This document shows positions 38,787-56,375 of a stretch of 64,000 nucleotides of DNA, in pieces; position 1 is the stretch's first letter; every line of letters starts with the position of its first letter. Source of the DNA: Candidatus Bathyarchaeota archaeon (GTDB lineage: Archaea > Thermoproteota > Bathyarchaeia > Bathyarchaeales > SOJC01); contig JAOZHR010000010.1 of NCBI GenBank assembly GCA_026014805.1, forward strand, positions 1 to 64,000, given 5' to 3'. The translations under genes and the position numbers were made by a program. The notes below the pieces were generated by a model. That model ran no database searches. It was not told where the DNA came from and saw only the letters and a list, made by a program, of their open reading frames with translations.

Positions 38787-39626
38787 TCAGTACTCTTTCG
38801 GCATCATCGCAAGTTCTTTGTAGGCGAAGACCGGGCCATCTTTGCACACAAACTTGTCTCCTATGTTACACCTTCCACACTTTCCGATGCCACACTTCAT
38901 CCTCATCTCGAGGGATAGAAATACTTCCTCGGGAGGGAAGCCGAGCTCGTTAAGAACTGGCATGGTGAACTTTATCATTATGGGTGGACCGCAGACAATT
39001 GCGATAGCGTTCTCTGAGCTTGGAGCGGTCTCCTTGAGAACGGCCGGGACAAAGCCCACTAATCCAGTCCAGCCAGGAACAGCTCTGTCTATGGTCACGT
39101 TAAGGTTAATATCATCCCTCTTTCCCCAAGCTTCAAGGTCGTATTTATAGGCGAGTTCACCTGGGTTGCGGGCTCCGTAGATAACTGTTAAGCCTCTGAA
39201 CCTATCTCTGTTGACTTCGTGAAGAATGAATTTTGTTAGAGACCTTAGCGTTGTGAAAGCGAAGCCTCCTCCGACAATGACAACATTGCGGCCTTCCATT
39301 CTCTCCAGTGGGAACCCGTTGCCGTATGGTCCTCTGACCCCTATTACTGTTCCCTCTTCGCAGTTGTGCAGGGCTGTGGTCACAACCCCGACCTTTTTAA
39401 TGGTGAACTGGATGTAACCTTCGTCCATGGGCGATGAGGCTATACCTAAGGGACATTCTCCGGCGCCGAAGACAGAAATCTCTGCGAACTGGCCACATCT
39501 GTACTTGAACTTCTTCATCGCTTCTGGATCTTGGAAAACAAGCTCAAACGTCTTTATGTCATTCACTTCATTTTCTGTTGTGATTTTTCTGATGACCGCA
39601 AGGTTTGGGATGTACGGATTACTCAT
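38787..39626 (-). CDS. flxA: FlxA-like FAD/NAD(P)-binding oxidoreductase subunit
   Basis: A 279-residue ferredoxin-NADP-reductase-fold protein. It has an FAD domain (RCGQFAEISV, then GEGTVIGVRGPYGNGFPLE-like loop), a nucleotide domain (VVIVGGGFAF, IVCGPPIMIK) and a C-terminal iron-sulfur site CGIGKCGRCNIGDKFVC. It resembles sulfhydrogenase gamma, anaerobic sulfite reductase B and FlxA. It would pass electrons between NAD(P)H and the Fe-S subunits encoded upstream. It is the last gene of the long leftward operon, 3 bases after flxB. Confidence 0.9.
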   Translation of the reverse strand: MSNPYIPNLAVIRKITTENEVNDIKTFELVFQDPEAMKKFKYRCGQFAEISVFGAGECPLGIASSPMDEGYIQFTIKKVGVVTTALHNCEEGTVIGVRGPYGNGFPLERMEGRNVVIVGGGFAFTTLRSLTKFILHEVNRDRFRGLTVIYGARNPGELAYKYDLEAWGKRDDINLNVTIDRAVPGWTGLVGFVPAVLKETAPSSENAIAIVCGPPIMIKFTMPVLNELGFPPEEVFLSLEMRMKCGIGKCGRCNIGDKFVCKDGPVFAYKELAMMPKEY

Positions 39627-40673: not shown

Positions 40674-41624
40674 TCACTTAATGAACTCCTGAGAATCCTC
40701 CATTTTGAACTCTCCCAACGGGGGGACCTCTTCAAGGCTGACTCCTGCCTCGTAGTTGTACCGTTCTTTCATAATCTTTTCAGTTTTTTTCACGAGCTCC
40801 CTCAGGTTTATATCCATTGGGCAAGCTCGACTGCAGGCTCCGCAATCGACGCATCTCCCGGCTATGTGGAAGGCACGGACGATGTGGTATATCATAGTAT
40901 CCGAGATATCATTTGTCTTGCCGAACCAAGCGGGCATTGTCTGGTCGACGAAGCACATCTTGCAATAGCAGAGGGGACAAATGTTTCTGCAAGCGTAGCA
41001 TCTGATGCACTTGCCTAGTTCCTCCTTAAAATGGTCCCACCTCTCTTCCACTGACTTCGACTCGAGGCTAGAAACTTCAGCGAACTCGTTCACTTCCGTG
41101 GTTTCAGGCACCTTCTCTCCCACAAATACATCGTAGATAGGTGGATTCTTGTGTCCGCAGGTTAGACACGAGTCGCAGAGGAAAACGTTTTTCGGTAAAA
41201 CAAGCTCGAAACCTTCTCCCTTAACCTTGATCTGTTCATCTTTAACGACGGCTTCGAGGACCTCCCTATCGCCGAGTTTCGCCTTTATCTTTTTCCTGTC
41301 AATGACACCTAGGCAAGGGACACCTATTATGACTACATTTTCCCTGGGAAACTGCTTCTCTATCGCACAAACCGCTATCAACCGTGCGTCGCAACCCTTT
41401 GCAATAACACCTACTTTTTCCTTTCTATCTACCACGTATTTTGAAAGGCTGGCGTCGCAACTTGCGTTCCAAACAAGCTTTTTAATGCTCTCTACTTTGT
41501 CCACAAAGCAGGGAGTCGTGCGAAGAGGCAGGGTTCCTCGCTCATATCCGATTATCAGGTCGACCTTCTTCTCGCTGAGAAGCTTTTCCGCGACCTCTCT
41601 TATCGAATTTTCAAGGTTTTCCAT
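40674..41624 (-). CDS. flxC: FlxC-like 4Fe-4S subunit
   Basis: A 316-residue protein with an N-terminal region related to the FrhB/FdhB fold (VGVIAKGCDARLIAV, VIIGVPCLGVID), a CDSCLTCGHKNPP zinc- or Fe-S-like motif, then two clusters CIRCYACRNICPLCYC (about 206) and CVDCGACSRACPMDI (about 260). Position between flxB and flxD and the domain order match the FlxABCD set of Desulfovibrio. It begins 6 bases after flxD. Confidence 0.85.
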   Translation of the reverse strand: MENLENSIREVAEKLLSEKKVDLIIGYERGTLPLRTTPCFVDKVESIKKLVWNASCDASLSKYVVDRKEKVGVIAKGCDARLIAVCAIEKQFPRENVVIIGVPCLGVIDRKKIKAKLGDREVLEAVVKDEQIKVKGEGFELVLPKNVFLCDSCLTCGHKNPPIYDVFVGEKVPETTEVNEFAEVSSLESKSVEERWDHFKEELGKCIRCYACRNICPLCYCKMCFVDQTMPAWFGKTNDISDTMIYHIVRAFHIAGRCVDCGACSRACPMDINLRELVKKTEKIMKERYNYEAGVSLEEVPPLGEFKMEDSQEFIK

Positions 41625-41630: not shown

Positions 41631-42059
41631 CTACCTCTTCACCAGTCTTTTGGCAGGCCCTAGGGCATCCACCTTTTCTACCATGTCCGTCACGACCTTA
41701 GCAAACTTTTCACCTTCAGCAGCGGAGACCCATGAGAAGTTTACCCTTCTAGGCTCAATCCCGAGGTATTCCAGTAGGTCTTTCAGAACAGCGAATCTTC
41801 TTCGGGCCACGAGGTTTCCGCTAATGTAGTGGCAGTCTCCTGGGTGGCATCCTGAGACTAAGACTCCGTCCCATCCACGCTGAAGGGCTTTTATGATAAA
41901 GTATGGGTTGACTCTTCCAGAGCAGGGGACTCGAACGACCCTTATGTTAGGGGGATACTGCATTCTGCTTATTCCAGCAAGGTCTGCTCCAGCGTAACTG
42001 CACCAGTTGCACAGGAACGCTAGTATTTTCGGGGGCCATTGTTTTTCTGCAGGTTTCAC
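41631..42059 (-). CDS. flxD: FlxD / MvhD-type delta subunit
   Basis: A 142-residue protein of the MvhD family: LAFLCNWCSYAGADLAG, VVRVPCSGRVNP, GCHPGDCHY and FSWVSAAEGEKFA. The cysteines fit the 2Fe-2S site of MvhD, which hands electrons to HdrA in methanogens. It starts 6 bases after the large HdrA and is the link between that HdrA and FlxABC. Confidence 0.93.
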   Translation of the reverse strand: MKPAEKQWPPKILAFLCNWCSYAGADLAGISRMQYPPNIRVVRVPCSGRVNPYFIIKALQRGWDGVLVSGCHPGDCHYISGNLVARRRFAVLKDLLEYLGIEPRRVNFSWVSAAEGEKFAKVVTDMVEKVDALGPAKRLVKR

Positions 42060-42065: not shown

Positions 42066-45000
42066 TCACCTCAACGCGTTTATGATCAAGCTCATCTGCA
42101 TGTCGGTGAAGCCCTTGATATCAATTGCTGAGCACCTGCAAGTAGCGGCGCAGGCTCCGCATCCCTTGCAAAGTGCGCTGTTCACCTTTGCTATTTTCCC
42201 CCTTTTGGTTTCTTCAATTTCTATGGCGTTGTAGGCGCATACCAGTATGCAGAGCTCGCACGCTGTGCACCTATTCGGGTTGACAGTGGCGATGATTCCC
42301 TCAGCCTCGATGGTGTCTTTCGTCAGCAGCGTACACGCTCTGGACACCGCGGCCTTCGCTTGAGAAATACTCTCTTCTATAGATTTCGGTGAGTGAGCCA
42401 TCCCGCACACGAAGATGCCTTCTGTAGCGAAGTCGACAGGGCGAAGCTTGGCGTGCGCCTCTAAGAAGAAGCCGTCTTCGTTTACGGGAACCTTCAGCAT
42501 CTTGGCTAGAGTCTCGTTTTCTTCGAGTGGAATCACGGCTGCGCTCAGAACGAGGAGATCTGCGTCTATGATGATGTCTTCTTGGATGGTTGGTTCAAAA
42601 ACTGATATCTGCAAGACTTCTTTTCCTCCTGACGCGGCCTTGGCAACCTTCGGCTTGTTTTCTTCTTCGTAGCGGATGAAGACGACTCCCGCCTCTCGAG
42701 CCCTTCTGTAGTGTTCTTCCATTAGGCCGTAGGTTCTTATGTCTCGGTACAGAATGTACACGTTAGCGTCCGGGTCTTTCTCCTTTATTTTCAAGGCGTT
42801 CTTGACTGCCTCTCCACAGCACATTCTGCTACAGTATGGGTGTTCGTCATTCCTAGACCCTACGCATTGGATCATCACCATGTTCCCGAACTTTTCGTTG
42901 CCAGCAGTGGCGATTGTATTCTCCAATTCCAACTGCGTCAATATACGGCGGTCCTTTCCATAGAGGTACTCATTCGGGTGGTGTTCTTCGCCTCCGGTAG
43001 CCACGATGATGACTCCGTGATCTAGCTCCTTTTTCGCTTCGCTGCCCGAGTTTATGGTTACAGTGGTTTTGAAGTTTCCCACGTAGCCGGAGACGTTCTC
43101 GACCTTTGCGTTAAGGAAGACTTGGATCAGCTTGTTCGAGTTTACCTTTTCAATAATGGTTCTTAGGTACTCTTGGGTGTCGTCGTTGTCCAACGTGTAG
43201 TATATTTTGCGCAGGAAGCCTCCAAGCTCATTGTTCTTTTCTACCAAGTCAACTTCAAAGCCTTGTTCGGCTAAGGCTAGAACCGCGGTCATTCCGGCCA
43301 ATCCTCCCCCGATGACGAGGCCTCGGCGGGTGACCCCCAGAGAAAGCCTTTCTAAGGGCTCCAGCATTCTAGCCTTCGCCACAGCCATTCTCACCAGATC
43401 CTTCGCCTTCTCGGTAGCGGCTTCAGGATTGCGCATGTGCACCCAGGAACATTGGTCGCGGATGTTCGCCATCTCGAAGAGATACCTGTTTAAGCCAGCT
43501 GCCTTTATCGTTTCTTGGAAGAGAGGTTCATGGGTTCGGGGTGAACATGAGGCCACTATAACTCTGTTTAGTTCGTATTCTTGGATTCTCTTCTTGATTA
43601 TCTCTTGAGTGTCTGAGGAGCATGTGTAGAGGTTTTCGCAGGCGTAGACAACGTTCGGGAGAGTCTGAGCATAATCCACAACGCTTGGAACGTCTACAAT
43701 CCCTCCAATGTTGATGCCGCAGTAACATATGAAAACCCCTATTCTGGGAGGCTGACCTCTAACATCCAGCTCTTTTGGATATTCCTTCTTCTTGACCAGG
43801 GTTCCTCGAACAGAAGAGAGCAATTCGCCCACACTGGTAGCGGCGGCGCTGGCCTGAGTAACGGTTTCAGGAATATCCTTTGGTGATGAGAACATGCCAC
43901 AGACGAAAACTCCAGGCCTAGAGGTTTCCAACGGATGAAAAGGTTGGGTTTTACAGAAACCGTGCTCGTTCAGCTCAACACCGAGGCTTTTAGCTAGCTT
44001 CTTAACGTTCTCGGATGGTGTAAAGCCGACCGATAGGACGACTAGGTTGAACTCTTCTTCGTGGAGCCTTCCGTCTTCGGTTTCATACCGTATCCTCAGG
44101 TTTTGAGTTTTGGGTATCTCCTTTACTTCGGACACCCTACACCTGACAAACCTTAATCCGTACTCGTTCTTAGCTCTCTCAATATACTTGTCGAAGTCCT
44201 TCCCGTAGGCCCGCAGGTCTATATAGAAGATAGTGGGTTCAATCTGGCTCATGTGCTCTCTGGCTATAACCGCCTCCTTCGTGGAGTACATGCAGCAAAC
44301 CGAAGAGCAGTAGCCGTTTCCACACGTGACATCTCTAGAGCCGACGCACTGTATGAAGGCAATTTTCCTAGGGATATCTCCGTCTGAAGGCCTCTGTACA
44401 CGCCCCAGGAAGGGGCCAGAGGCACTCAGGATGCGCTCGAACTCGATACTCGTGACCACGTTGGGGTATCTTCCGTAACCGTACTCACTCTTCAACCTGG
44501 CGTTAAACTCTTCAACGCCGGGGGCTAGAATGACAGCGCCAACATTCAGCCTAACTTCTTTCTCTTGATCCGAGTAGTTTATAGCGTCGGCCAGACAAAC
44601 GTTTTTACAGAGCCCACAGCCTACACACTTTTCCCTATCGATCATGTACACCAAGGGAACGGCTTGCGGGTAGTTGATGTGAATCGCCGTTCTCTCACTC
44701 AAGCCTTTGTTGAAGGTGTCTATGGCGTCAACTGGACAGAACTTGGCGCACACCCCACACCCTGTGCACTTCTCGATGTCAACGTATCTCGGTCGTTGTC
44801 TCACTGAGACGTTAAAGTTGCCTACCTCTCCAGAAATCTCGGTGACTTCGGAGCAGGTCAAAACCTCAACGTTCAGGTGTCTTCCGCATTCCACAAGCTT
44901 TGGGGACAGAATGCACATGGAGCAGTCGTTGGTTGGAAAGGTTTTGTCCAGCTGCGCCATGACTCCGCCTATAGCCGAGGAGTTGTCCAATACGTAAACT

Positions 45001-45116
45001 TTGAAACCTGACTCGGCTAGGTCAAGTGCAGCCTGTATCCCTCCAATCCCCCCACCTACAACTAGCACTGAACCCACCTTGCTGGTTTCAGAAACCGGGT
45101 TTTGCAAATTCACCAT
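42066..45116 (-). CDS. hdrA: Double-length HdrA-like electron-bifurcating flavoprotein
   Basis: About 1016 residues made of two HdrA modules in tandem. The first half lacks the N-terminal Fe-S domain and has an FAD site (VVGGGIGGIQAAL, about 22) and clusters CTGCGVCAKFCP (about 122) and CVGCGLCKNVC (about 165). From about 460 a complete HdrA begins (FICYCGINIGG), with its own FAD site (VIGGGLAGMTAV, about 605) and clusters CTACELCILVC and CKGCGACAATC near the end. HdrA bifurcates electrons between ferredoxin and the heterodisulfide site. ATG 45116 has GGAG about 9 bases upstream and avoids overlap with the previous gene. The same two halves exist as separate genes upstream. Confidence 0.92.
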   Translation of the reverse strand: MVNLQNPVSETSKVGSVLVVGGGIGGIQAALDLAESGFKVYVLDNSSAIGGVMAQLDKTFPTNDCSMCILSPKLVECGRHLNVEVLTCSEVTEISGEVGNFNVSVRQRPRYVDIEKCTGCGVCAKFCPVDAIDTFNKGLSERTAIHINYPQAVPLVYMIDREKCVGCGLCKNVCLADAINYSDQEKEVRLNVGAVILAPGVEEFNARLKSEYGYGRYPNVVTSIEFERILSASGPFLGRVQRPSDGDIPRKIAFIQCVGSRDVTCGNGYCSSVCCMYSTKEAVIAREHMSQIEPTIFYIDLRAYGKDFDKYIERAKNEYGLRFVRCRVSEVKEIPKTQNLRIRYETEDGRLHEEEFNLVVLSVGFTPSENVKKLAKSLGVELNEHGFCKTQPFHPLETSRPGVFVCGMFSSPKDIPETVTQASAAATSVGELLSSVRGTLVKKKEYPKELDVRGQPPRIGVFICYCGINIGGIVDVPSVVDYAQTLPNVVYACENLYTCSSDTQEIIKKRIQEYELNRVIVASCSPRTHEPLFQETIKAAGLNRYLFEMANIRDQCSWVHMRNPEAATEKAKDLVRMAVAKARMLEPLERLSLGVTRRGLVIGGGLAGMTAVLALAEQGFEVDLVEKNNELGGFLRKIYYTLDNDDTQEYLRTIIEKVNSNKLIQVFLNAKVENVSGYVGNFKTTVTINSGSEAKKELDHGVIIVATGGEEHHPNEYLYGKDRRILTQLELENTIATAGNEKFGNMVMIQCVGSRNDEHPYCSRMCCGEAVKNALKIKEKDPDANVYILYRDIRTYGLMEEHYRRAREAGVVFIRYEEENKPKVAKAASGGKEVLQISVFEPTIQEDIIIDADLLVLSAAVIPLEENETLAKMLKVPVNEDGFFLEAHAKLRPVDFATEGIFVCGMAHSPKSIEESISQAKAAVSRACTLLTKDTIEAEGIIATVNPNRCTACELCILVCAYNAIEIEETKRGKIAKVNSALCKGCGACAATCRCSAIDIKGFTDMQMSLIINALR

Positions 45117-45147
45117 TTTGGCATTCTCCAGTTGTCGAATTTTTCTC

Positions 45148-45930
45148 TCACCCTCCCGTCCTGCGGTACTTCGGGCTGTTTCCTTCAATTCCCACGACAG
45201 AGACTAATCCGTCGCGCTCAAGAGAGACCATATTTCTCAGTACTTCCCTCGGTGAAGCTTCCACTCTCTGGGCAATCTCTTTGACAGAAAGAGCGTCTTC
45301 TTCCATGGAAAGGAGAATTCTTCTTTTTGCAAACTCCTTTTCGATTGTTTGGAGCGTCAGTTGGTCGAACTTTTCTTGTGACACCTTCTCTCCGAAGACG
45401 TTCTTGTCCTCTACGAGTTCTCTTTCTCTGCCCACAAGCCATCTAATTCTCTCCTGGGCAAGGACTTCCCTGGCTGCGACTAAGCATGTCTTTAACTCTT
45501 GGGATTCCATGTCTGTTTCTTTGCCAAGTCGGCCCAATTTCTTTACCCTCTCTGTAAAATTTTTCACCAGAGTTGCGAAACGTTCACCCTCAGCCGCAGA
45601 CACCCAATCGACCAGCAATCGGTCAGGAGATAACCCTACATTTTTCAGAACTTTTTTAGTCGTCTTCATTCTTCTCTCCGCGTAGTAGTTTCCAGTCATG
45701 TAGTGACAGGTTCCTAAGTGGCAACCCAGAACCATGACACCGTCCAGCCCTCGGATGAATACTTCTAGGACGATGGTTGGGTCAACCCTTGCTGAGCACA
45801 TCACTCTGATAATTCTGATGTTTGAAGGGTACTGAAAACGGCTGACTCCAGCCAGGTCTGCGCTGGCGTAGGAACACCAGTTGCAGAGAAATCCGAGGAT
45901 GTCTGGTTCAAAGCTTTCTTTGAAGGTCAA
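45148..45930 (-). CDS. MvhD-type subunit fused to a winged-helix domain
   Basis: A 260-residue protein. Residues 1-140 are a full MvhD domain (FLCNWCSYASADLAG, VMCSARVDP, GCHLGTCHY, VDWVSAAEGERFA). A charged helical linker follows to about residue 205. The C-terminus is a winged helix: LSVKEIAQRVEASPREVLRNMVSL, then RDGLVSVVG and a wing ending KYRRTGG. MvhD is normally a 140-residue electron carrier. The added DNA-binding-like domain could sense the redox state of the complex and regulate the operon, or simply be a structural adaptor. It lies between the split hdrA pair and the fused hdrA. Confidence 0.9.
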   Translation of the reverse strand: MTFKESFEPDILGFLCNWCSYASADLAGVSRFQYPSNIRIIRVMCSARVDPTIVLEVFIRGLDGVMVLGCHLGTCHYMTGNYYAERRMKTTKKVLKNVGLSPDRLLVDWVSAAEGERFATLVKNFTERVKKLGRLGKETDMESQELKTCLVAAREVLAQERIRWLVGRERELVEDKNVFGEKVSQEKFDQLTLQTIEKEFAKRRILLSMEEDALSVKEIAQRVEASPREVLRNMVSLERDGLVSVVGIEGNSPKYRRTGG

Positions 45931-47600
45931 GGTTTCACCTCAGTTAGGGGAATTACTTGAGCGAGGAGTTGCTCATCTGTGAAGTGCTGCATGGTGATCG
46001 CCTTTTGAGGGCAGCCAGCTCCGCATGCCCCGCACCCCTTGCAGGAAGCGGCTATCACCTTGGCTTTTCTCCCTTTCTCGATCTCTTCGACTTGTATCGC
46101 TTTGAAGGGGCAGGTCAGCTCGCACAAGCTGCAGCCTGAGCATTCGTCCTCATTAACCAGAGGGATTAGGGGCTCAGTTTTCACATGTCCAACTGCCATA
46201 GGTATGGACGCTCGAGAAGCTGCGCCATACGCTTGGGAAATGCTCTCGCCGACATTGGCTGGCCAGTGGGCGCAACCGCATACATAGATGCCGTCCGTAG
46301 CGAAGTCGACAGGTCGAAGTTTCACGTGGGCCTCTAGGAAGAAACCGTTCTCATCCACAGGCACTTTCAGTTTCTGTGCGAGGTCTCTGGAGTCGTTGTG
46401 AGCAACCATGGGGGTCGACAGTACAACGAGGTCATAAGGCAGGATGAGTTCTTCGCCTAAAAGCTCATCATAAACTCTCACCGATCCGTTCTCGAGGACT
46501 GGCTGCCTTTCTGGCGAGTGTTTTATGAACGTTATGCCGGTTCCTCTCGCTTTCCCATAGTAATCCTCGTATTTTGTTCCTGGGGTCACTATATCTCTGT
46601 AGAGCACGAAAACTTGAGCGTCTGGGTTAGCTTCTTTGATCAGCATGGCGTTTTTGAGGGCGGTTGGACAGCAAACTTTAGAGCAGTAAGCTCTTTTTTC
46701 GTTTCTCGACTCTACGCATTGAATCATCACAACAATGTCAGCGTTGAGCCTTCCTTCCTTCAGCATTCGTTCCAGTTCCATCTGGGTGATAACGTGTTCT
46801 CCATCGTAGGCATATATGCCCACGGGCTTGAGCGTATCAGCCCCTGTTGCCACTATGATCACTCCGGCCTTGAATAACTTCTCCTTTTCTCCTTGCTTTA
46901 CTGTTACATCATAGTTGCCCACGAATCCTTTAACTTCTTTAACTTCGGAAGATGTCAAAATCTCTATCTTCGGGTTATTCTTAAGCTTCTCCGCTTTCGC
47001 TTGAACCCACTTTGAGGCTTCCTCGTGCGTTGGGTAAAGCTTGTAGAGGCTGTTTAGAGTCCCGCCTAGCCGGTCCTCCTTCTCCACCAGCTTCACCTCA
47101 AAGCCTCGGTTGGCTAGGCTTAGCGCACAAGTCATTCCCGCAATTCCTCCACCAATCACCAAAGCGCACGGATTGACCTCAACCTCAGTCTCTTCCAAAG
47201 GCTCTAGCAGCCCCGCTCTCGCGACTCCCATCCTTATGAGGGCTTTCGCCTTTTCGGTTGCCCTCTCCCTTTCTTGCATGTGAACCCAAGAGCACTGGTC
47301 CCGTATGTTGACGAACTGAAAGAGGTAGGGGTTCAGTCCTGCCTCCTTGCAGGTGGACCTGAACAGGGGCTCGTGGGTCCTAGGAGTGCAAGAAGCTACG
47401 ACCACCCGGTTAAGTTTGTTTTCGACTATGGCATTTTTTATTTCTGTCAATCCGGCATCAGAGCATGTATACTGATTGCCCTTCGCGAAAACAACATAAG
47501 GCAAACTCAATGCGTATTTGGCGAGTCCCGGAACGTCCAAGAACCCTCCTATGTTTGTGCCGCAGTGACAGACGAAAACGCCAACTCTTACTTCATTCAA
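45927..47600 (-). CDS. hdrA: HdrA-like protein, complete module (equivalent of the second half of the fused HdrA)
   Basis: A 557-residue HdrA. It begins with the N-terminal Fe-S domain (VFVCHCGTNIGGFLDVP, VASCTPRTHEPLF, NIRDQCSWVHM), then an FAD site VIGGGIAGMTCAL. Cys-rich VESRNEKRAYCSKVCC and two C-terminal clusters CSGCSLCELTCP and CKGCGACGAGCP follow. It is collinear with the C-terminal half of the double HdrA downstream. TTG start with GGTGA 7 bases upstream; overlaps the next gene by 4 bases. Confidence 0.92.
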   Translation of the reverse strand: MNEVRVGVFVCHCGTNIGGFLDVPGLAKYALSLPYVVFAKGNQYTCSDAGLTEIKNAIVENKLNRVVVASCTPRTHEPLFRSTCKEAGLNPYLFQFVNIRDQCSWVHMQERERATEKAKALIRMGVARAGLLEPLEETEVEVNPCALVIGGGIAGMTCALSLANRGFEVKLVEKEDRLGGTLNSLYKLYPTHEEASKWVQAKAEKLKNNPKIEILTSSEVKEVKGFVGNYDVTVKQGEKEKLFKAGVIIVATGADTLKPVGIYAYDGEHVITQMELERMLKEGRLNADIVVMIQCVESRNEKRAYCSKVCCPTALKNAMLIKEANPDAQVFVLYRDIVTPGTKYEDYYGKARGTGITFIKHSPERQPVLENGSVRVYDELLGEELILPYDLVVLSTPMVAHNDSRDLAQKLKVPVDENGFFLEAHVKLRPVDFATDGIYVCGCAHWPANVGESISQAYGAASRASIPMAVGHVKTEPLIPLVNEDECSGCSLCELTCPFKAIQVEEIEKGRKAKVIAASCKGCGACGAGCPQKAITMQHFTDEQLLAQVIPLTEVKP

Positions 47601-47607
47601 GCTCTTT

Positions 47608-48900
47608 TCACCTCATCACCGTTTCCGCCGCTCTCTCGGCTGCTCCACTCGCTTGGGTAACAGACTCTGGTATATCCGTTGGGTCCCGACAGCAACCACA
47701 CACGAATATTCCCGGCTTTGTCGTGTCTAACGGGATGAGAGGGTCCGTCTTGAAAAAGTTATATTCGTCAAGCTCGACGCCCAGAGCTTTTGCCAGTTCC
47801 TTTACGCTCCTCCTTGGCATCAGGCTTGTCGCCAAAACCGCCAGATCTACGGTCATTTTCTTTGTTTTTGAGCTCTTAGTTTCTTCGTACCAAACCATGA
47901 GGTTCTCGTCATGGTCTTCGGTGATCTTGGCTACTCTTCCTCTGATGTATGATATGTTATACTCTTGCTCTCCCCTCGCCACGTACTCTTGAAAGTTCTT
48001 GCCTGGGGCCCTGAGGTCCATGTAGAATATGTAAGACTTCACCTTGGGGTTATGTTCGTAGGCAAGCATGGCCTCCTTGGTTGCGTGCATACAGCAGACG
48101 GATGAGCAGTAACGGTTGTTTTTGAGATCTCTAGACCCGACACATTGGACGAAAGCGATTTTCGCTGCGGGCTTATCGTCTGAGGGTCTCAGAAGGTGTC
48201 CTCCAGTGGGTCCCGAGGCGCATATCAGCCTTTCGTATTCCAAAGAAATGACGACGTTCCTGTACCTTTTGTAGCCATACTGGGAGATTCCAGACGGGTC
48301 GTAAGGGTCAAAACCAGTGGCGACGATGATGGCACCAACGTGCAACATTACGTTTGTGTCCTCCTGCTCAAAGTCTATTGCCTTCTTAGAACATATCTTC
48401 TCGCAAATTTTACACACTCCTCTCGTTAAGTAAAGGCAGTTTTCCCGATCGATACTCATGACCGCTGGGACTCCTTGAAGGTAGTATGGGTATATAGCTT
48501 CCCTCTTTCTCAGTCCCATATCAAACTCGTCAGGTACCTTCACTGGACACTTGGCAGCGCACTCTCCACAGTTGACACACTCCTTTTCCTTCACAAATCT
48601 AGCATACTTACGTAACTTTACAGAGAAATCTCTCACTTGTCCCGTTACCTCTTTGACCTCCGACAGCGTGTGGAGGGTGATGTTTGTATGTCTGAAGCAA
48701 TCAGCCAGTTTTGGGGCTAGTATACAAATGGAGCAGTCGTTTGTCGGAAAAGTCTTGTCAAGTTGAGCCATCCTCCCCCCTATGCTCGGCTGCCTCTCAA
48801 CTAGGTGCACCTTTATTCCCATATCTCCGAGGTCGAGTGCGGCCTGAATGCCAGCTATCCCACCACCGATAACCAGAATTGCCTTAGGCTTTTCCCCCAA
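47608..48900 (-). CDS. hdrA: HdrA-like protein lacking the N-terminal domain (equivalent of the first half of the fused HdrA)
   Basis: A 430-residue protein starting directly at the FAD fold (VIGGGIAGIQAAL, then QLDKTFPTNDCSICILAPKL). It carries a ferredoxin-like region CVNCGECAAKCP and a less regular CLYLTRGVCKICEKIC, then VGSRDLKNNRYCSSVCC. It is collinear with the first half of the double HdrA. TTG start with a strong GGAGGAAAGG upstream; overlaps the FrhB-like gene by 17 bases and is followed by the other half after 7 bases. Confidence 0.9.
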   Translation of the reverse strand: MGEKPKAILVIGGGIAGIQAALDLGDMGIKVHLVERQPSIGGRMAQLDKTFPTNDCSICILAPKLADCFRHTNITLHTLSEVKEVTGQVRDFSVKLRKYARFVKEKECVNCGECAAKCPVKVPDEFDMGLRKREAIYPYYLQGVPAVMSIDRENCLYLTRGVCKICEKICSKKAIDFEQEDTNVMLHVGAIIVATGFDPYDPSGISQYGYKRYRNVVISLEYERLICASGPTGGHLLRPSDDKPAAKIAFVQCVGSRDLKNNRYCSSVCCMHATKEAMLAYEHNPKVKSYIFYMDLRAPGKNFQEYVARGEQEYNISYIRGRVAKITEDHDENLMVWYEETKSSKTKKMTVDLAVLATSLMPRRSVKELAKALGVELDEYNFFKTDPLIPLDTTKPGIFVCGCCRDPTDIPESVTQASGAAERAAETVMR

Positions 48901-50026
48901 GGACCTTTCCTCCCGCCAATTCCGAAAGCCTCTCCTTGGCTCTCATCTTCTTTCTCCTAGAGTAGGAGACGATCTTAGCCATCATCTTTGTCTTCTCCAG
49001 CTTACTTTCCTCCACATCTTCGAATGTTCTCTCCTGGATGTAACCCTTACGAAGAGCTTCATCGTAGACTGATGAACCTAATTCTGTCCTTATAAGAACT
49101 GTAGTGTATTCATTGGGTGAACCAAGTCCTCCAACCGAGATATCTGCATACTCGTTGCTGAAGTCTTGACATGCAAAACATGCTGGGCGAGCAACTTCAT
49201 CTATCTCTTCTAATGGGACATGAATTGTCACGCCCTTAGTGAGGGTAATTATGAAGTCGTCTTTGATATTTAGTTTAACAATATTCTCCAGATTGATGTC
49301 GAGTTTTTTTTCTAACCTTTCCCTCGCTACGTCATTGAAGGAGAAGTTCTCTATGCAGAAAAGTCCTATTGTATACTTTATGAGGTGAGCTGGGATGATC
49401 CCCAGGCACTGCATCTTTCGGATCGCGTTAATCTGGCAGGGAGTTCCAACCACAGCGATATCCTGTAGATATCTTTTCTCTAAGCTCTTTACTGTGGACA
49501 GGATCGGGGTGTAAGTAGTATATTTTCCCCCTAATTCTTCTAGGTGGAGGGACCCTGAGAACGTAGAACCCGCCGCTTCGATGAGCCCCTCACGTGTCCT
49601 AGCTATTATCGCCTTCCTAGCGAAGCGTCCGGTCTTCTTTGAGACAATTGCGCCATTTATCAGATTGCGCTCTAATAAGTATATAAGGAGGGAGGTCACT
49701 ACTCCTCCGTCTGTGCAAATTTTTTTTATCTTTTTATCTGTCGTCTGAGTGGAGATTACCTTCTGGTATTTTCCAATAGAGGGATTCCAACCGAATTTTT
49801 CCTGGAGCTCTACATTTAACGTATCTGTTTGGGGACATATGAGATAGCATATTCCGCATTTTAGACAATTATCCTCGTTGATGTATCGTGGCAACTCGTT
49901 TTCTCCCATCTCTAGGGCGTTAAGTTCTCCAGCTGAGCAGAAAGAGACGCAGCCACCACACTTGCCACATATTCCGGTTTCAACAACTTCCTTGATCAGG
50001 TCTTTAAATGACTTAACCTCCTCCAT
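48884..50026 (-). CDS. FrhB-like F420/ferredoxin-interacting subunit
   Basis: A 380-residue protein with two N-terminal 4Fe-4S clusters (CGKCGGCVSFC, CLKCGICYLICP) followed by the FrhB/FdhB N- and C-terminal domains (CTDGGVVTSLLIYLLE, VVGTPCQINAIRKM, CFACQDFSNEYADISVGG). Family members carry FAD and oxidise or reduce F420, or act as ferredoxin:F420 modules. As first gene of the nine-gene operon it probably gives the HdrA complex an F420 or ferredoxin port. ATG 50026 is preferred to TTG 50035. Confidence 0.9.
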   Translation of the reverse strand: MEEVKSFKDLIKEVVETGICGKCGGCVSFCSAGELNALEMGENELPRYINEDNCLKCGICYLICPQTDTLNVELQEKFGWNPSIGKYQKVISTQTTDKKIKKICTDGGVVTSLLIYLLERNLINGAIVSKKTGRFARKAIIARTREGLIEAAGSTFSGSLHLEELGGKYTTYTPILSTVKSLEKRYLQDIAVVGTPCQINAIRKMQCLGIIPAHLIKYTIGLFCIENFSFNDVARERLEKKLDINLENIVKLNIKDDFIITLTKGVTIHVPLEEIDEVARPACFACQDFSNEYADISVGGLGSPNEYTTVLIRTELGSSVYDEALRKGYIQERTFEDVEESKLEKTKMMAKIVSYSRRKKMRAKERLSELAGGKVLGGKA

Positions 50027-50161
50027 GTTAACCAAGCCTTAGAATGTTAGTATAATTTTGTACCATTATTTAGGAATTTCTTATTTGCAAATTGGAGAAC
50101 AATAGATATAAAGCAGCGGTGTAAACGTATAGCTTCTCATGAAGTCTCGGAGAGATTCAAG

Positions 50162-51514
50162 CTGCCCAGAAAAATAGTAATTATTGGCGCCAACGCTGCT
50201 GGCGTTCATGCAGCCAACGCGGTCCGCAAAACCGATTCGAAGGCTGAAATAATTCTAATAGATAAGGAGCCATATCCAGCGTACTCTCGTTGCGGTATAC
50301 CGTATGTGTTAGCGGGTGAGATACCCAGTTTTGAGGATCTCATGGCCTTTCCTCCGTCCCACTATAGAATGATGAAATTTGATCTACACCTTGAAACTAA
50401 TGCTAAGTCTATCAATCTCGATGACAAAAATGTTCTAATTGAAGACAAGGATGGGAACTTTGAAACAAAAAAATATGATTCATTGATCCTCGCCACTGGC
50501 GCTGACCCATTTGTTATCCCGATAGAAGGTCACGACCTTCCAGGAGTGTTTGCAATGAGGACGGTGGATGACGGAAAGGCAATCCAACAGGCAATGAAGA
50601 CTGCTAAGAGCGCTGTTGTTATAGGGGCTGGATTTATTGGCTTAGAAACAGCACACGCCTTGGCAGCGAATAAAATTAAAACCACGATCATCGAATTGAT
50701 GCCATATGTTCTTCCTGGATTATTCGACGAAGATATGGCCGATTATTCACAGAAAAAGATAGAAGAACACGGCGTTAGCGTCGTGGTGGGTAGACGGGTG
50801 GATGCGATTCTAGGAAAAGACAAGGTTGAAGGTGTAAATGTAGGAGGCGAAGAAATAAAAGCGGATGTGGTTGTGATGGCGGCAGGCATTAGACCTAGGA
50901 CAGACTTGATAAGGGGACTAGGAGTGGAGCTTGGTGTAACTAGAGCCATTAGAGTAAACCCCAGAATGGAGACCAGCGTTTCAGGCATATTCGCGGCTGG
51001 AGACTGTGTTGAGTCTCAAAGCTCGATCACAGGGTTACCATGCCTTTATCAACTTGGAACCAACGCAGTTAGACATGGAACAACCGCTGGAATAAATGCC
51101 ACAGGAGGATACGCTGCCAATCCACGCGTTATATGCAGCGCGGTCACGAAAATCTTCGATTTTGAACTCGGTGCAGTTGGTCTCTCAGAGTATCAGGCCG
51201 CCAAGATCGGTTTCCAAACAGTCAGTGCAAGCATAACAGGCAGAACACGAGCGTCATATTTTCCGGGAGGAAAAGAAATCAAAGTAAAAATTATTGCCGA
51301 GCCTGTCATGGGAAGGGTTATGGGAGCCCAATTAGTCGGAGGAGAAGATGTGGCCCAGAGAATTAACATGCTCTCCGTGGCGATACAAAAAGAAATGACG
51401 GTGTTAGAGCTTTCAGCGGCAGATACCAGCTACGCTCCTCCAGTAGCTGAAACTTTAGAGCCCGTAGCGTTAGCCGCGGAAATCGCTGCGAAGAAAATAA
51501 GGCGACGGCGTTAG
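50162..51514 (+). CDS. CoA-disulfide reductase / NADH oxidase family flavoprotein
   Basis: About 450 residues. The N-terminal FAD fold (KIVIIGANAAGVHAAN) precedes the first ATG/GTG/TTG in frame (GTG 50306), so the true start is upstream. CTG 50162 has GGAGAG 7 bases before it and gives the usual length. The redox cysteine is Cys44 in YSRCGIPYVLAG, the single-cysteine arrangement of CoA-disulfide reductase and Nox. An NAD site (VIGAGFIGLETAHAL) and a C-terminal dimerisation domain follow. It may reduce CoA disulfides, polysulfide or oxygen. It runs opposite to the Hdr operon and is followed by an H-protein-like gene. Confidence 0.9.
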   Translation: MPRKIVIIGANAAGVHAANAVRKTDSKAEIILIDKEPYPAYSRCGIPYVLAGEIPSFEDLMAFPPSHYRMMKFDLHLETNAKSINLDDKNVLIEDKDGNFETKKYDSLILATGADPFVIPIEGHDLPGVFAMRTVDDGKAIQQAMKTAKSAVVIGAGFIGLETAHALAANKIKTTIIELMPYVLPGLFDEDMADYSQKKIEEHGVSVVVGRRVDAILGKDKVEGVNVGGEEIKADVVVMAAGIRPRTDLIRGLGVELGVTRAIRVNPRMETSVSGIFAAGDCVESQSSITGLPCLYQLGTNAVRHGTTAGINATGGYAANPRVICSAVTKIFDFELGAVGLSEYQAAKIGFQTVSASITGRTRASYFPGGKEIKVKIIAEPVMGRVMGAQLVGGEDVAQRINMLSVAIQKEMTVLELSAADTSYAPPVAETLEPVALAAEIAAKKIRRRR

Positions 51515-51596
51515 GCAGAATCTCCAGTAGGCACTGACCGCGACATTCAAGGCTAATCACGCCCAAAGAAGTTAGAAACTTTAGAAGGCTGAATGA

Positions 51597-52067
51597 ATGA
51601 AAGTTGGCACATACAACATCCCTGAAAACCTTTATTACATTAAAGAACACGAGTGGATCTTAATGGAGGATACTGGCACCGCGAAAATTGGCATCACAGA
51701 TTACGCTCAGAAAGCGCTAAGGGAGATTACATACTTTTACGTAGAGAAGAGAGGTGTTGAAGTCAAACGGATGGAGACAATCTGCAAAATAGAGTCAGTA
51801 AAATGTGTTGCTGAGATAATGAGCCCCCTTTCGGGCGTGGTTGTCAGATTCAATAACGGACTAATTGACAACCTAGCCATAATAAACAATGACCCTTACG
51901 GCAAAGGTTGGATGGCAATTATCCGCCCTACGAACTTTGACAAGGAGCTAGAAAAATTATTAAAACCAGAACTTTACGCCAAGCACATTAAAGAACTTAC
52001 CAAAATTGACGAAACTTTATTGATTTATAGATGGAAAAAAGGAGCAAAGAAAAAAACGGACGAATAA
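51597..52067 (+). CDS. H-protein-like lipoyl carrier within the Hdr region
   Basis: A 156-residue relative of GcvH. YYIKEHEWILMED, IGITDYAQKALREI, lipoylation site IESVKCVAEI with the target Lys, IMSPLSGVVVRFN and NNDPYGKGWMAII are present. Two cysteines flank the lipoyl Lys (ICKIESVKCVAE), unlike the canonical copy at 38174, and the C-terminus is longer and basic. It lies 82 bases after the flavoprotein and converges on hdrB. Lipoate-binding proteins of this fold work with sHdr complexes in sulfur-oxidising bacteria, so an Hdr partnership is plausible. Confidence 0.88.
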   Translation: MKVGTYNIPENLYYIKEHEWILMEDTGTAKIGITDYAQKALREITYFYVEKRGVEVKRMETICKIESVKCVAEIMSPLSGVVVRFNNGLIDNLAIINNDPYGKGWMAIIRPTNFDKELEKLLKPELYAKHIKELTKIDETLLIYRWKKGAKKKTDE

Positions 52068-52081
52068 GAAAAGTTCTACAC

Positions 52082-52957
52082 CTAGACACCAAGCTTGCTC
52101 AATAAATCAGACGTTTTCACACGGTTCATGCCCAACTCTAGATCCTTTGGGTCTATTCCGAGAGCAAGCCCAAGGACTTGTGGATAGAAGAGTACCGGCA
52201 GGTTATAAGCGACATTAAACCTTCTCTCTATCACCCTCTGATTTCTGTCGTACATAGAGCCACACAAGGGGCACATCAGAACTATCGCGTCGGCACCCAT
52301 AGCGTTGACATTGTCAAGTTTCCTCTTTGCCATCGCCAACGCAATGTTATCGTCAATGTCCAAAGTCACTCCGCCGCAACACTGCGTCTTATCCTCATAT
52401 TCTACAGTCTCCGCGCCCAGGGCAGAGATAAGTTCATCTAGAGTTCTTGGAAACTCGGGGTCCTCAAATTTGTCAAAAACGTCTGAAGGTTTAAGATAAT
52501 GGCATCCGTAGTGGGAGGCTAACTTGAGTCCCTCCAAGCTGTTCTTAACCTGGCTTCTAATCTTTTCAGGACCAACGTCTTCGTACAGAACTCGCACAAA
52601 GTGTTTAACCTTGACCTTTCCTTTGTAAGCCCGACCTATCTTCTGCAGTTTCTCGTTGACCTCTTCCCTTAACCCATCATCGTGTGTCAGCTCTTTGCTG
52701 GCTTCCGCCAGCGTGGAGGCGCAACCTGTGCAGATGGTGCATATGTCTATGCCCATGCCCTCAGCAACGCTTAGGTCCCTGGCAGCTAGAAGCAAGGCTG
52801 TTTCTTGGTCTACGGACTTTATAGGGAAGCCGCAACAGGCAAAGTCCTCTGCGTCTATGAGTTCCACTCCAAGTTCTTTGGCGACCTTCCTCGCTGAAAG
52901 CTCAAACTGTCTAGACATCACAGGTGCAAGGCATCCCAGGAAAAAGGCGTACTTCAC
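52082..52957 (-). CDS. hdrB: Heterodisulfide reductase subunit B
   Basis: A 291-residue HdrB with two CCG domains: FLGCLAP, FACCGFPIKS, CTICTGCAS, then ASHYGCHYLKP, KTQCCGG and LMCPLCGSMYD. These bind the non-cubane 4Fe-4S clusters that split a disulfide. The final residues GLALGIDPKDLEL are typical. It begins 1 base after hdrC. HdrB would be the disulfide-reducing site of the complex. Confidence 0.94.
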   Translation of the reverse strand: MKYAFFLGCLAPVMSRQFELSARKVAKELGVELIDAEDFACCGFPIKSVDQETALLLAARDLSVAEGMGIDICTICTGCASTLAEASKELTHDDGLREEVNEKLQKIGRAYKGKVKVKHFVRVLYEDVGPEKIRSQVKNSLEGLKLASHYGCHYLKPSDVFDKFEDPEFPRTLDELISALGAETVEYEDKTQCCGGVTLDIDDNIALAMAKRKLDNVNAMGADAIVLMCPLCGSMYDRNQRVIERRFNVAYNLPVLFYPQVLGLALGIDPKDLELGMNRVKTSDLLSKLGV

Positions 52958-52958
52958 T

Positions 52959-53459
52959 TTATTCTCCTCCTCCAGCGCCTGACAGTTTGTTCAAGCCAGT
53001 TAGCTTAAAGAGCTTTTGAACCTCTTCGTTTATAGGTGGAATTTGCGGCAACCCGAGTTCCTTCCGTTTGGTGTTGTCAAACTTGCTTATGGGGAACAGT
53101 CTGCCATTAGCCCCTACAAGCTCCACTCGTTTAGCAAAGGAGCTGTGAATATAACCTTCTTTGACTGCCAGATTTTTGAGAACGTTCATCACGTCGGCTA
53201 TCCTAACGTCCTGTGGGCATCGTTCCTGGCAGGTGTAACATGCAGAACACAGCCATATGAAGTCGCTTGAAAGGACCCTTTCCCTCATGCCGAGCACGGT
53301 CATGCGTATGATCTTTCTAGGATTGTATTTCTCCTCTATCTCCCTAACCGGGCATCCGACATTGCATGTTCCACACTGATAGCACCTCTTTATGTTCTGT
53401 CCTCCAGGAGCTTTAGAAACTTCGTCTTTGAACCTAGGGTCGAGTTTGGTGACCACCAA
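52959..53459 (-). CDS. hdrC: Heterodisulfide reductase subunit C
   Basis: A 166-residue HdrC with two 4Fe-4S clusters, CYQCGTCNVGCPV and CSACYTCQERCPQ, and the RKIIRMTVLGM helix between them. It links HdrA to HdrB. First gene of the hdrC-hdrB pair; a TATA-like ACTTAAATTA lies near 53556-53565 on the minus strand. Confidence 0.93.
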   Translation of the reverse strand: MVVTKLDPRFKDEVSKAPGGQNIKRCYQCGTCNVGCPVREIEEKYNPRKIIRMTVLGMRERVLSSDFIWLCSACYTCQERCPQDVRIADVMNVLKNLAVKEGYIHSSFAKRVELVGANGRLFPISKFDNTKRKELGLPQIPPINEEVQKLFKLTGLNKLSGAGGGE

Positions 53460-53579: not shown

Positions 53580-53956
53580 CGCGCGGTCATGTCCAGTGAC
53601 ACAACTCTTTGACGCGCAAATTGACGTCATAGGCTGACAGAATTCTTTGCAAGAAGAGAAGGAATCACAACCGTAGTTAGAACAATCACTTTGAAGACGG
53701 GAGCGGACTGTTATCTTAGCGCTATGCCAATAAAGTGAACCTTGTTGTCGAAAAAGAATCGCAACGAATAGTTGGAGCCCAGATTATTGGGGTAGAGGAA
53801 GCTATCCAACGCATAAATCCTCCATCCTTTGCCATACAAAAACAGATGACTATTCAAGAACTAGCGAAAGTGGACACAGCGTACGCACTACTCCTGTGCG
53901 AGACATGAGAACTCATGGTCTTAGCCGCAGAAATTGTGCTGATGAAACTCCGATAA
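53580..53956 (+). pseudogene. Decayed C-terminal part of a second CoADR/NADH-oxidase gene
   Basis: Reading through changes of frame gives VTQLFDAQIDVIG, LTEFFARREGITTVV, YLSAMPIK, VNLVVEKESQRIVGAQIIG, FAIQKQMTIQEL, DTAYA and LAAEIVLMKLR. Segment by segment this matches the C-terminal domain of the flavoprotein at 50162-51514 (for example GRVMGAQLVGGED and SVAIQKEMTVLEL). There are frameshifts near 53634 and 53732 and an in-frame TGA near 53908. The N-terminal two thirds are missing. Confidence 0.8.
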
Positions 53957-54063: not shown

Positions 54064-55077
54064 ATGGCGATAAAAGTAGCTATAAACGGATTTGGCAGAA
54101 TTGGACGTTTACTCTTCAGAGCTGCTACAGAAAGAAAAGCCAACATAGACTTCGTAGCGCTAAACGACCTCGCACCCGCAAAAACCTTAGCATACTTACT
54201 TAAAAACGACTCAGTACACGGACATCCACCATTCAACGTAAGAGTTGAAGAAAACACGATAATCGTAGACGGCAAACCGATAAAAGTGCTCTCAGAAAGA
54301 GACCCTGCACAACTTCCTTGGAAAGACATGAACGTCTACCTAACTGTTGAATCAACAGGGCTATTCACAGCCAGAGAAAAAGCTTCACTACACTTGCAAG
54401 CAGGCGCCAAGAAAGTCTTAATCTCCGCACCCGCCAAAAACCCAGACATAACCATAGTGCTAGGCGTAAACCACGAAAAATACAACCCTGCAAACCACAA
54501 CATCATCTCAAATGCTTCATGCACAACAAACTGCGTCTCTCCAGTTGTCAAAATATTGAATGATAACTTCGGTCTAAAGAAGGCACTTATGACAACCGTC
54601 CACGCATATACAAACGACCAAAGAATCCAAGATCTAGTCCATAGAAAACTTCGCAGGGGCAGAGCAGGAGCAGTGTCAATTATACCCACAACAACAGGAG
54701 CCGCTGTAGCCGCCACCACTGTACTTCCAGAACTTTCGGGAAAAATGAACGGCCTTGCCTTAAGAGTTCCAGTACCTAACGTTTCAATAGTCGACCTTAC
54801 TGCTTTGCTGGAAAAGGAGACAACGGCGGAGGAAATTAACGGTGCGTTCAAAGCAGCTGCAGAGGGACCGTTGAAGGGGATAATGGACTACACAGAAGAA
54901 CCGCTTGTGTCAGTTGACTTTAACCACAATTCATACTCTGCAACAATTGATGCACTATCCACGATGGTAGTTGGTGGCAACTTGGCAAAGGTGCTTGTTT
55001 GGTACGATAACGAATGGGGCTTCTCCTGCCGCATGGTAGAACTCATCGAACTCATAGGTAAAAAAGCCGGCTTGTAA
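54064..55077 (+). CDS. gap: Type I (bacterial-type) glyceraldehyde-3-phosphate dehydrogenase
   Basis: A 337-residue class I GAPDH: KVAINGFGRIGRLLFRA, active site SNASCTTNCVSPV, TTVHAYTNDQ, RRGRAGAVSIIPTTTGA and WYDNEWGFSCRMVEL. Most archaea use the unrelated type II enzyme with a SCNTTG active site, so this copy was probably acquired from bacteria at some point. It precedes an archaeal-type PGK; the two catalyse consecutive steps between glyceraldehyde-3-phosphate and 3-phosphoglycerate. Confidence 0.96.
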   Translation: MAIKVAINGFGRIGRLLFRAATERKANIDFVALNDLAPAKTLAYLLKNDSVHGHPPFNVRVEENTIIVDGKPIKVLSERDPAQLPWKDMNVYLTVESTGLFTAREKASLHLQAGAKKVLISAPAKNPDITIVLGVNHEKYNPANHNIISNASCTTNCVSPVVKILNDNFGLKKALMTTVHAYTNDQRIQDLVHRKLRRGRAGAVSIIPTTTGAAVAATTVLPELSGKMNGLALRVPVPNVSIVDLTALLEKETTAEEINGAFKAAAEGPLKGIMDYTEEPLVSVDFNHNSYSATIDALSTMVVGGNLAKVLVWYDNEWGFSCRMVELIELIGKKAGL

Positions 55078-55107
55078 ACAACGCAAAACGTTCCTGAAAA
55101 ATGTCCT

Positions 55108-55133
55108 TAGAGGCATTCGCCCTCTATTTTTTT
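55108..55133 (+). terminator. Hairpin with T-run between gap and pgk
   Basis: TAGAGG and CCTCTA form a 6-bp stem around CATTCGC, followed by seven T residues. It may terminate or attenuate transcription before pgk. Confidence 0.55.
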
Positions 55134-55145
55134 GGTTGGTAAAAA

Positions 55146-56375
55146 ATGTCGAAAATCTTAACCATAAATGACTTCGACTTCAGAAACAAAACTGCTCTGG
55201 TAAGAGTGGACTTTAACTCTCCAATTGATCCCCAGACGAAGAAGGTCCTAGAAGACGTAAGGATTAGAGTACATGGAGAAACAACAATTAAAGAACTCGC
55301 TCAGAAAGGCGCAAAAGTCGTAGTGCTAGCTCATCAAGGAAGACCTGGAGAGCCCGACTTCATATCTCTTGAGCAACATGCAAAGATTCTCAGCAAGATA
55401 CTGAATAAGCCCGTCAAGTACGTGGATGACCTTTTTGGAGAGAAAGCTAAAAAGGCCATAAAAGAATTGAAAAACGGACAAATTCTGATTCTAAAAAACG
55501 TTAGAACATACCCCGAAGAACGAAATAAGGAAACTCCCGAAAAACACGCAAAAACAGATTTTGTAAAATCGCTGGCACCCCTAGCTGACGTGTTCATCAA
55601 CGACGCCTTTGCAGCTGCCCACCGCTCCCACGTTTCCATCGTGGGCTTCACAGCTGTCCTACCTAGTGTTGCGGGGCGAATTATGGAGAAAGAACTCAAC
55701 GCCTTAAGCAAAGCCCTTGAATCGCCAGAGAAGCCCTGCATCTACATTTTGGGCGGTGCCAAGGCAGACGATGCCCTTAGAATTTCGAAGTACGTATTGG
55801 ATAACAACATCGCTGACAACGTTTTAACAGGTGGTGTGGCGGGGCATCTATTCCTAGCTGCAAAAGGTGTAGACCTTGGAACCCCAAACATAGAGTTTCT
55901 CAAGAAGAAGGAGTTACTAGGCTTCGTTTCTGGCATTGAAAAATTGATAAGAAGCTATCCAGACCAAGTTAAAACGCCTTCCGACCTGGCCATAGATGTA
56001 GATGGTAAACGGGAAGAAATAGCCATAGAAGAGCTTCCGACAAACTATCCAATATGCGACATTGGAACGAAAACCATTCAGCACCATGGCGGAATTATAC
56101 GAAAAGCCAAGTCTATCGTAGTCAGCGGACCTATGGGAATTTTCGAAAACAAAGAATTCATGAAAGGAACTAAGGAAATCCTAGAAGCTGTAGCAGACTC
56201 GAAAGCCTTCTCTCTTGTTGGAGGAGGTCACACGGTAGCGGCAGTTGAACAGTTGGGGCTTGAAAAGAAAATGGGTTACATAAGCACAGCGGGTGGAGCG
56301 TTAATAGAGTTTCTAATGGGCGAAAAACTGCCTGGGGTGGCTGCTTTAGAAGCCGCGGCAAAAAGACAACCCTAA
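55146..56375 (+). CDS. pgk: Phosphoglycerate kinase (archaeal type)
   Basis: A 409-residue PGK: ALVRVDFNSPIDPQ, KVVVLAHQGRPGEPD, DVFINDAFAAAHRSHVS, YILGGAKADDALRI, VSGPMGIFENKEF and LVGGGHTVAAVEQLG. The HQGRPG and GGAKADD variants are typical of archaeal PGKs. It is encoded 68 bases after gap on the same strand. Confidence 0.95.
   Translation: MSKILTINDFDFRNKTALVRVDFNSPIDPQTKKVLEDVRIRVHGETTIKELAQKGAKVVVLAHQGRPGEPDFISLEQHAKILSKILNKPVKYVDDLFGEKAKKAIKELKNGQILILKNVRTYPEERNKETPEKHAKTDFVKSLAPLADVFINDAFAAAHRSHVSIVGFTAVLPSVAGRIMEKELNALSKALESPEKPCIYILGGAKADDALRISKYVLDNNIADNVLTGGVAGHLFLAAKGVDLGTPNIEFLKKKELLGFVSGIEKLIRSYPDQVKTPSDLAIDVDGKREEIAIEELPTNYPICDIGTKTIQHHGGIIRKAKSIVVSGPMGIFENKEFMKGTKEILEAVADSKAFSLVGGGHTVAAVEQLGLEKKMGYISTAGGALIEFLMGEKLPGVAALEAAAKRQP

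Follow-up and report, generated by a model that had tools for sequence, protein, structure and literature searches.

The disulfide used by many HdrABC complexes of non-methanogenic archaea is an open question, and a locus of a Candidatus Bathyarchaeota archaeon (assembly GCA_026014805.1, contig JAOZHR010000010.1) poses it in concrete form. Within positions 1 to 64,000 of the forward strand (the window, meaning the whole stretch of 64,000 nucleotides analysed here), FlxA-D and the HdrA, HdrB and HdrC subunits are encoded together in one block, which also holds the genes of a lipoyl carrier with the H-protein fold (H2) and of a flavoprotein (FLAV') beside hdrB and hdrC. The original prediction for this locus was that a lipoyl protein may be the dithiol substrate of Hdr. 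Its observation is confirmed and its interpretation is partly supported: we rate as about evenly balanced the chances that the block is a module in which the lipoyl disulfide/dithiol of H2 is the thiol substrate of HdrB, replacing the CoM-S-S-CoB heterodisulfide or DsrC. A functional link between lipoyl protein and Hdr is supported by their conserved linkage, by genes for LipS1, LipS2 and an LplA-like protein and by the lack of a match to MCR or DsrC, while the exchange of electrons of H2 with HdrB is the putative step.

Proteins of the window were assigned to domains with Pfam and to families with TIGR and NF profiles at their equivalog cut-offs. H2 has 156 residues and matches GCV_H (PF01597) across the whole domain with 121 bits; it passes the broader NF002270 profile (134 bits, cut-off 117) and falls just below the equivalog cut-off of TIGR00527 (115.4 versus 115.85 bits). 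Its lipoyl motif, CKIESVKCVAEI, places K69 between C63 and C70, an arrangement that had been noticed from the start; the protein has no other cysteines. In an AlphaFold2 model (mean predicted local distance difference test score, pLDDT, 91.4), residues 124-154, including the tail, form one long helix, with pLDDT dropping to 59 at the extreme end; the tail motif KELTKID..LL.YRWK was common to the first three H2 proteins compared and is somewhat varied in the rest. At a threshold of E < 1e-50 (next match at 1.5e-41), H2 was found in seven of the 256 genomes of the class that were searched, and these form one clade (support 99/92) in a tree with rows drawn from the retrieved loci, not from every H protein of the class. 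A scan of contigs with general H-protein motifs gave one true H2 ortholog among 80 loci, L083, which is probably from the same genome as G165. The lipoyl lysine is kept in all seven proteins, Cys63 in six and Cys70 in five. The two cysteines are not essential features; they are not conserved in G050 and G165 (H2 of G050 is cysteine-free), and we rejected them as a working feature. A recent duplication of H1, the other lipoyl H protein of the window, was also rejected as the origin of H2, as the two are 40% identical and fall in separate clades.

HdrB adjoins H2 in all seven genomes, FLAV' in six, HdrC in five, and FlxABCD with HdrA in five, where HdrB of G165 and G050 are fragments at 100-N gaps and FLAV' of G161 is a fragment at a gap. 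For G161 and G165, the remaining block genes were not found in the flanks retrieved, and both scaffolds are joined by N runs. H2 was picked by sequence alone and adjoins Hdr in six of six other genomes, which is more than chance. Because the other six loci are closely related, G050 gives the best sign that the link between H2 and Hdr is functional rather than merely inherited. Its H2 is 51% identical, FLAV' was not seen beside it, and the gene order differs: HdrA-MvhD-HdrA-MvhD-FlxC-B-A-H2-HdrB-HdrA/GltD-like-Hx-OsmC-Lpl(AB), in which Hx is a distinct lipoyl H protein and Lpl(AB) a two-domain lipoate ligase. Both the conserved neighbourhood and the lipoylation genes, which the original prediction had left to be checked, were found, and neither of the outcomes that it named as refuting came about.

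The block itself is an insertion. Most examined relatives from the window's taxonomic order have H1 followed directly by a related flavoprotein (FLAV), in several followed by GAPDH and PGK, and G150, from the window's own genus, shows this plain H1-FLAV-GAPDH-PGK order. H1, GAPDH and PGK of the window are 90, 92 and 93% identical to those of G150, while FLAV of G150 is just 53% identical to FLAV'. Between HdrC and GAPDH lies a decayed FLAV C-terminus, interrupted by a stop and a frame break. By tblastn, its identity over 74 residues is 59-78% to six native FLAVs, against 49% to FLAV'. A 20-residue remnant is found at the same place in G029, and none was detectable there in G246 and G247. The G+C content is 48.2% in the block versus 43.8% and 43.1% in its flanks. 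The order in relatives, the remnant and the G+C content together indicate that the native FLAV was replaced by a block that carried a flavoprotein and a lipoyl protein of its own. H2 and the flavoprotein do lie where the first account placed them as an insertion between hdrCB and the Hdr operon, but the insert is the whole Flx/Hdr/FrhB-FLAV'-H2-HdrBC block, between H1 and the decayed FLAV with GAPDH.

Table 1. Features of the inserted block and its borders in the window
Feature	Position	Strand	Evidence
H1, lipoyl H protein, FLAV-linked clade; left border of inserted block	38174..38590	+	PF01597 133 bits, TIGR00527 139 bits; 22-row tree clade
FlxA-like NAD/FAD subunit	38787..39626	-	NAD_binding_1, FAD_binding_6, DHODB_Fe-S_bind
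FlxB-like iron-sulfur subunit (sulfhydrogenase beta / AsrA-like)	39630..40667	-	Fer4_22; NF040829 183 bits
FlxC-like iron-sulfur subunit	40674..41624	-	Fer4 domains, position
MvhD/FlxD	41631..42059	-	FlpD PF02662 193 bits
HdrA, long, 1040 residues, two Rossmann halves	42066..45188	-	NF040770 1036 bits, 3 stretches
MvhD with C-terminal extension	45148..45930	-	49-85% to MvhD of relatives
Split HdrA, C-terminal part	45927..47600	-	NF040770 568 bits
Split HdrA, N-terminal part	47608..48900	-	NF040770 527 bits
FrhB-like F420-binding subunit	48884..50035	-	FrhB_FdhB_N and _C
FLAV', CoA-disulfide-reductase/NADH-oxidase-type flavoprotein, CTG start	50162..51514	+	Pyr_redox_2, Pyr_redox_dim
H2, lipoyl H-fold carrier, long C-terminal helix, K69 lipoyl lysine	51597..52067	+	PF01597; 7-member clade; structure model
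HdrB, two CCG domains	52082..52957	-	CCG PF02754 in 2 stretches; TIGR03288 299 bits
HdrC, two 4Fe-4S sites	52959..53459	-	Fer4_8; TIGR03290 132 bits
Native FLAV C-terminal remnant, decayed; right border of inserted block	~53634..53953	+	tblastn
GAPDH and PGK (two genes), ancestral right-hand neighbours	54064..56375	+	92% and 93% identical to G150 copies

Flx subunits carry the names that we take to be theirs, FlxC by position and content. Two HdrA sets lie within 42066-48900, one a double HdrA and the other split over two genes. The adjacent hdrB and hdrC were seen correctly at the outset. Both products score under the equivalog cut-offs of TIGR03288 and TIGR03290, and the cluster cysteine motifs are complete in HdrC and in both CCG domains of HdrB (C9, C41-42, C79; C152, C193-194, C232).

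The genome has the means to supply the cofactor. LipS1 (250.5 bits, cut-off 230) and LipS2 (347.6 bits, cut-off 270) are encoded as a divergent pair on one contig (C30) and a single-domain LplA-like protein on another (C22), so lipoylation is possible. MCR alpha had no match in this 96.55% complete genome in a search that matched two of 14 known control genomes, and DsrC had none in a search that matched one of 14; thus neither of the two best-known substrate systems of HdrB was found. GcvT and GcvPA/PB are encoded on other contigs, and Lpd is present (NF004947, 762.7 bits, cut-off 592), so that the absence of P-, T- and L-proteins remarked in the original prediction is true locally, with all three elsewhere in the genome. 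For the same reason we rejected FLAV' as an L-protein needed for want of Lpd. These genes open another explanation, in which a glycine cleavage or reductive glycine system would use H2 as a further H protein, with Hdr-Flx acting as L-protein: HdrB would reoxidise the dihydrolipoyl group left by GcvT, and glycine oxidation would thereby feed the F420, NAD and ferredoxin pools. No H gene of the genome is linked to GcvT, H1 and H2 are the sole lipoyl H candidates, and GcvP-linked H genes (G041, G036) are among the rows closest to the H2 clade in the tree. However, an Lpd already exists, the regions around H2 that were annotated with Gcv queries hold no Gcv gene, and H2 in the six relatives accompanies Hdr rather than GcvT or GcvP. 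We consider this explanation unlikely.

If H2 is instead the substrate of HdrB, the stretch from 38.8 to 53.5 kilobases would be a transferable electron-transfer module of FrhB, HdrA sets, MvhD, FlxABCD, HdrBC, FLAV' and H2. The LplA-like protein with LipS1 and LipS2 would lipoylate H2 on K69, and HdrB may then exchange electrons with the lipoyl disulfide or dithiol through a predicted contact. Going by family names, FlxA would be the NAD port and FrhB the F420 port, with HdrA as the flavoprotein at which electron pairs would be split or joined. FLAV' may couple NAD(P)H to the lipoyl arm of H2 by exchanging electrons with both, and is a candidate reductant of that arm, as are glycine cleavage and a thiol donor. 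Given the usual potentials of NAD, F420 and ferredoxin, ferredoxin reduction driven by lipoamide reduction would be unfavourable, and a joint oxidation of dihydrolipoyl and ferredoxin is therefore more likely. The net direction would then probably be oxidative, with NAD+ or F420 receiving the confurcated electrons of dihydrolipoyl and reduced ferredoxin. The standard potential E0' of lipoamide is about -0.29 V (PMC6067878). The bifurcation proposed earlier, with lipoamide as high-potential acceptor, is energetically poor.

The flavoprotein tells a related story. A mechanical open reading frame call started FLAV' at 50306, which we rejected because homologs begin at 50162, where the original prediction had also put it. 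The start codon there is CTG, as it is at the same position in G246 and G247 (stretches L171 and L174), and TTG in G029. FLAV' carries an SRCGIPY motif at C44, with the cysteine present in 20 of 20 aligned FLAVs (an alignment without that of G029, which is split over two retrieved stretches). Relatives of the family comprise peroxidases as well as CoA-disulfide reductases and NADH oxidases; flavoproteins of the latter two kinds (PDB 6pfz, 6ruz, 4fx9, 3kd9) share with FLAV' the fold, a single conserved cysteine in CG[IL]P and a YAPP motif. FLAV' differs from CoA-disulfide reductases in scoring well under their equivalog cut-offs (TIGR03385, 349 bits against 579; NF007123, 317 against 458) and in its recurring neighbour, a lipoyl protein. 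Among the 22 rows of the H1 clade, FLAV lies directly downstream in 16, the Hdr block takes its place in four (the window, G029, G246 and G247), and neither is there in two (G139, G026). In G026 HdrC and a ThiF-family gene flank the H1-clade lipoyl gene, with HdrB, FrhB and HdrA alongside (L210:2097-3391). The neighbourhoods of FLAV suggest lipoyl proteins as its substrates, and partner of a lipoyl protein is a better reading of it than the recycler of CoA or persulfide disulfides that had been proposed, which is not supported here.

The same clade bears on H1, which had been called a canonical gcvH. H1 does exceed the TIGR00527 cut-off (139.3 bits), but tree and neighbourhood place it in the FLAV-linked clade. 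GcvT and GcvP were absent from all 17 H1-clade stretches examined (a scan that left out L039 of G029), versus present at 14 of 20 other H loci. In G078, G139 and G039, H1 has LipS1 and LipS2 close by, and G139 and G056 each carry a GcvT-linked H protein plus one of the H1 clade. H1 is thus probably not simply a canonical GcvH, a reading qualified by H1 and H2 being the only lipoyl H candidates in the genome. A third PF01597 match, on contig C31, was rejected for its AMKM motif, which we take to mark a biotin carrier.

FLAV' and H2 can also be seen as a thiol-redox or peroxide-defence pair, passing electrons from NAD(P)H through flavoprotein and lipoyl protein to a peroxidase and merely riding in the Hdr block. 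OsmC/Ohr proteins elsewhere use dihydrolipoyl proteins, and OsmC-family genes stand within Hdr-lipoyl-ligase clusters of G050 and G169 (L176:5700-6149 and L238:3495-3878). Peroxidases among the FLAV relatives and FLAV-H1 pairs without Hdr in 16 relatives would suit such a role. OsmC was not seen in the window block, though, and in G050 H2 stays by HdrB where FLAV' is not there, which makes this pair quite improbable as the explanation.

To view Hdr across the class, we took 30 HdrB-centred and 20 Lpl-centred stretches from the upper ranges of their lists, across families and not randomly. Around Lpl(AB) ligases similar to the G050 one, an Hx gene is adjacent in 14 of 30 loci, all within the best 24, and the lipoyl lysine is kept in eight of eight Hx rows. 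Pairs of Hx (motif ESGKW) and Lpl(AB) occur in L242-L265 and L272-L289, partly near HdrB, hydrogenase and HdrDE-like genes. HdrB or CCG genes are found in six of the 20 larger Lpl stretches, two of them at merely 24% identity (HdrD-like). These stretches include HdrABC genes in G055 and G059 (the latter with an Oxidored_q6 subunit and a hydrogenase maturation protease), HdrB with a Complex1_49kDa/NiFe-hydrogenase protein in G017, and a Fer4-CCG protein with a nitrate-reductase-gamma-like membrane protein in G119. The order in G169 is Lpl(AB)-LipS1-OsmC-HdrC-HdrB-HdrA. On a Hodarchaeota contig (L094:2-5536), HdrA-like and HdrC-like genes flank an H protein.

Other H-fold proteins beside Hdr are without the lipoyl lysine. 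Ten such proteins in six genomes carry M or W at the lysine position or, in one, a disrupted motif, and their genes always lie beside a GltD-like-MvhD-HdrA-MvhD-HdrC-HdrB run (L219:7472-8798, L224:11247-12600, L226:3141-3728, L227:16638-17249, L228:1954-3393 and L230:1405-2641). Their N-terminal stretch looks like a ribbon-helix-helix domain, for which Pfam made no call in the two proteins scanned. They lend some weight to a structural or regulatory role of H2 in the Hdr complex, as an H-fold subunit whose lipoyl group, if any, is not an electron carrier; the lysine kept in every H2 and every Hx makes this very improbable.

Several results weigh against H2 as the HdrB substrate. An H-fold gene occurs in eight of the 30 HdrB-centred stretches and six of these eight hold lysine-less ones only; most Hdr complexes of the class are therefore without a lipoyl neighbour. 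The flanking cysteines are incompletely conserved, synteny among six loci closely related by descent weighs little beyond G050, the block itself contains no ligase or LipS gene, and the negative results for MCR and DsrC leave CoM/CoB synthesis genes, which were not searched for. A broader reading would make protein-bound lipoamide the general replacement of CoM-S-S-CoB in Bathyarchaeia, where Flx-Hdr, hydrogenase-linked HdrABC and membrane HdrDE-like complexes would each have a dedicated carrier (H2 or Hx), some with a private Lpl(AB), FLAV would be an NAD(P)H oxidoreductase specific for lipoyl groups, and the H-fold proteins without the lysine in other Hdr clusters would be descendants that have lost their cofactor. 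We offer this only tentatively and think it somewhat unlikely.

How does the locus compare with known systems? The partner of FlxABCD-HdrABC in Desulfovibrio is DsrC. The window shares that subunit set and differs in that DsrC is unmatched in the genome and in its extra FrhB, second HdrA set, H2 and FLAV'. With the CoM/CoB heterodisulfide reductase it shares the HdrB motifs but not the methanogenic MCR context. A close parallel is the Hdr-like complex sHdr of sulfur oxidisers, which depends on the lipoyl protein LbpA, itself essential (PMC6067878), with LipS1/LipS2 and sLpl(AB) as maturation path of LbpA (PMC10332631). A GcvH-like protein with a lipoyl lysine is encoded with Hdr genes in both cases, LipS1/LipS2, also in the window genome, and maturation of the Lpl(AB) type are shared, and the cluster-linked dihydrolipoamide dehydrogenase of archaeal sHdr is comparable to FLAV'. 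By contrast, sHdr has the order hdrC1B1A-hyp-hdrC2B2 whereas the window has one HdrB and one HdrC with FlxABCD, MvhD and FrhB; most LbpA proteins, some archaeal ones excepted, have N- and C-terminal cysteines, both of which H2 lacks; and in sHdr the genes for ligase and LipS1/LipS2 belong to the cluster or lie close to it, where the window block has none but the clusters of G050 and G169 have Lpl(AB) and Lpl(AB)-LipS1. Lipoyl GcvH as carrier of the HdrB disulfide was proposed for Culexarchaeia (PMC9723716), whose Ehe cluster likewise has GcvH among Hdr genes (HdrA2B2C2) in a non-methanogen, but with a membrane [NiFe] hydrogenase, SdhA and CdhA where the window has Flx, FrhB, FLAV' and an H2 that belongs to a clade of its own. 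An Flx-Hdr version with its own H2 clade, FLAV partner, insertion scar and Hx-Lpl(AB) pairs was not found in the open-licence literature searched.

A lipoyl protein is a concrete and testable answer to the question of the HdrABC disulfide, resting on a carrier that moves with the complex and adjoins Hdr in every genome that has H2, and on relatives with private ligases. If it is true, sHdr sulfur oxidation and anaerobic electron confurcation would come under one cofactor logic and lipoate would gain a role outside carbon metabolism, as protein-bound lipoic acid may replace the small thiol cofactors that Hdr uses in methane-making archaea.

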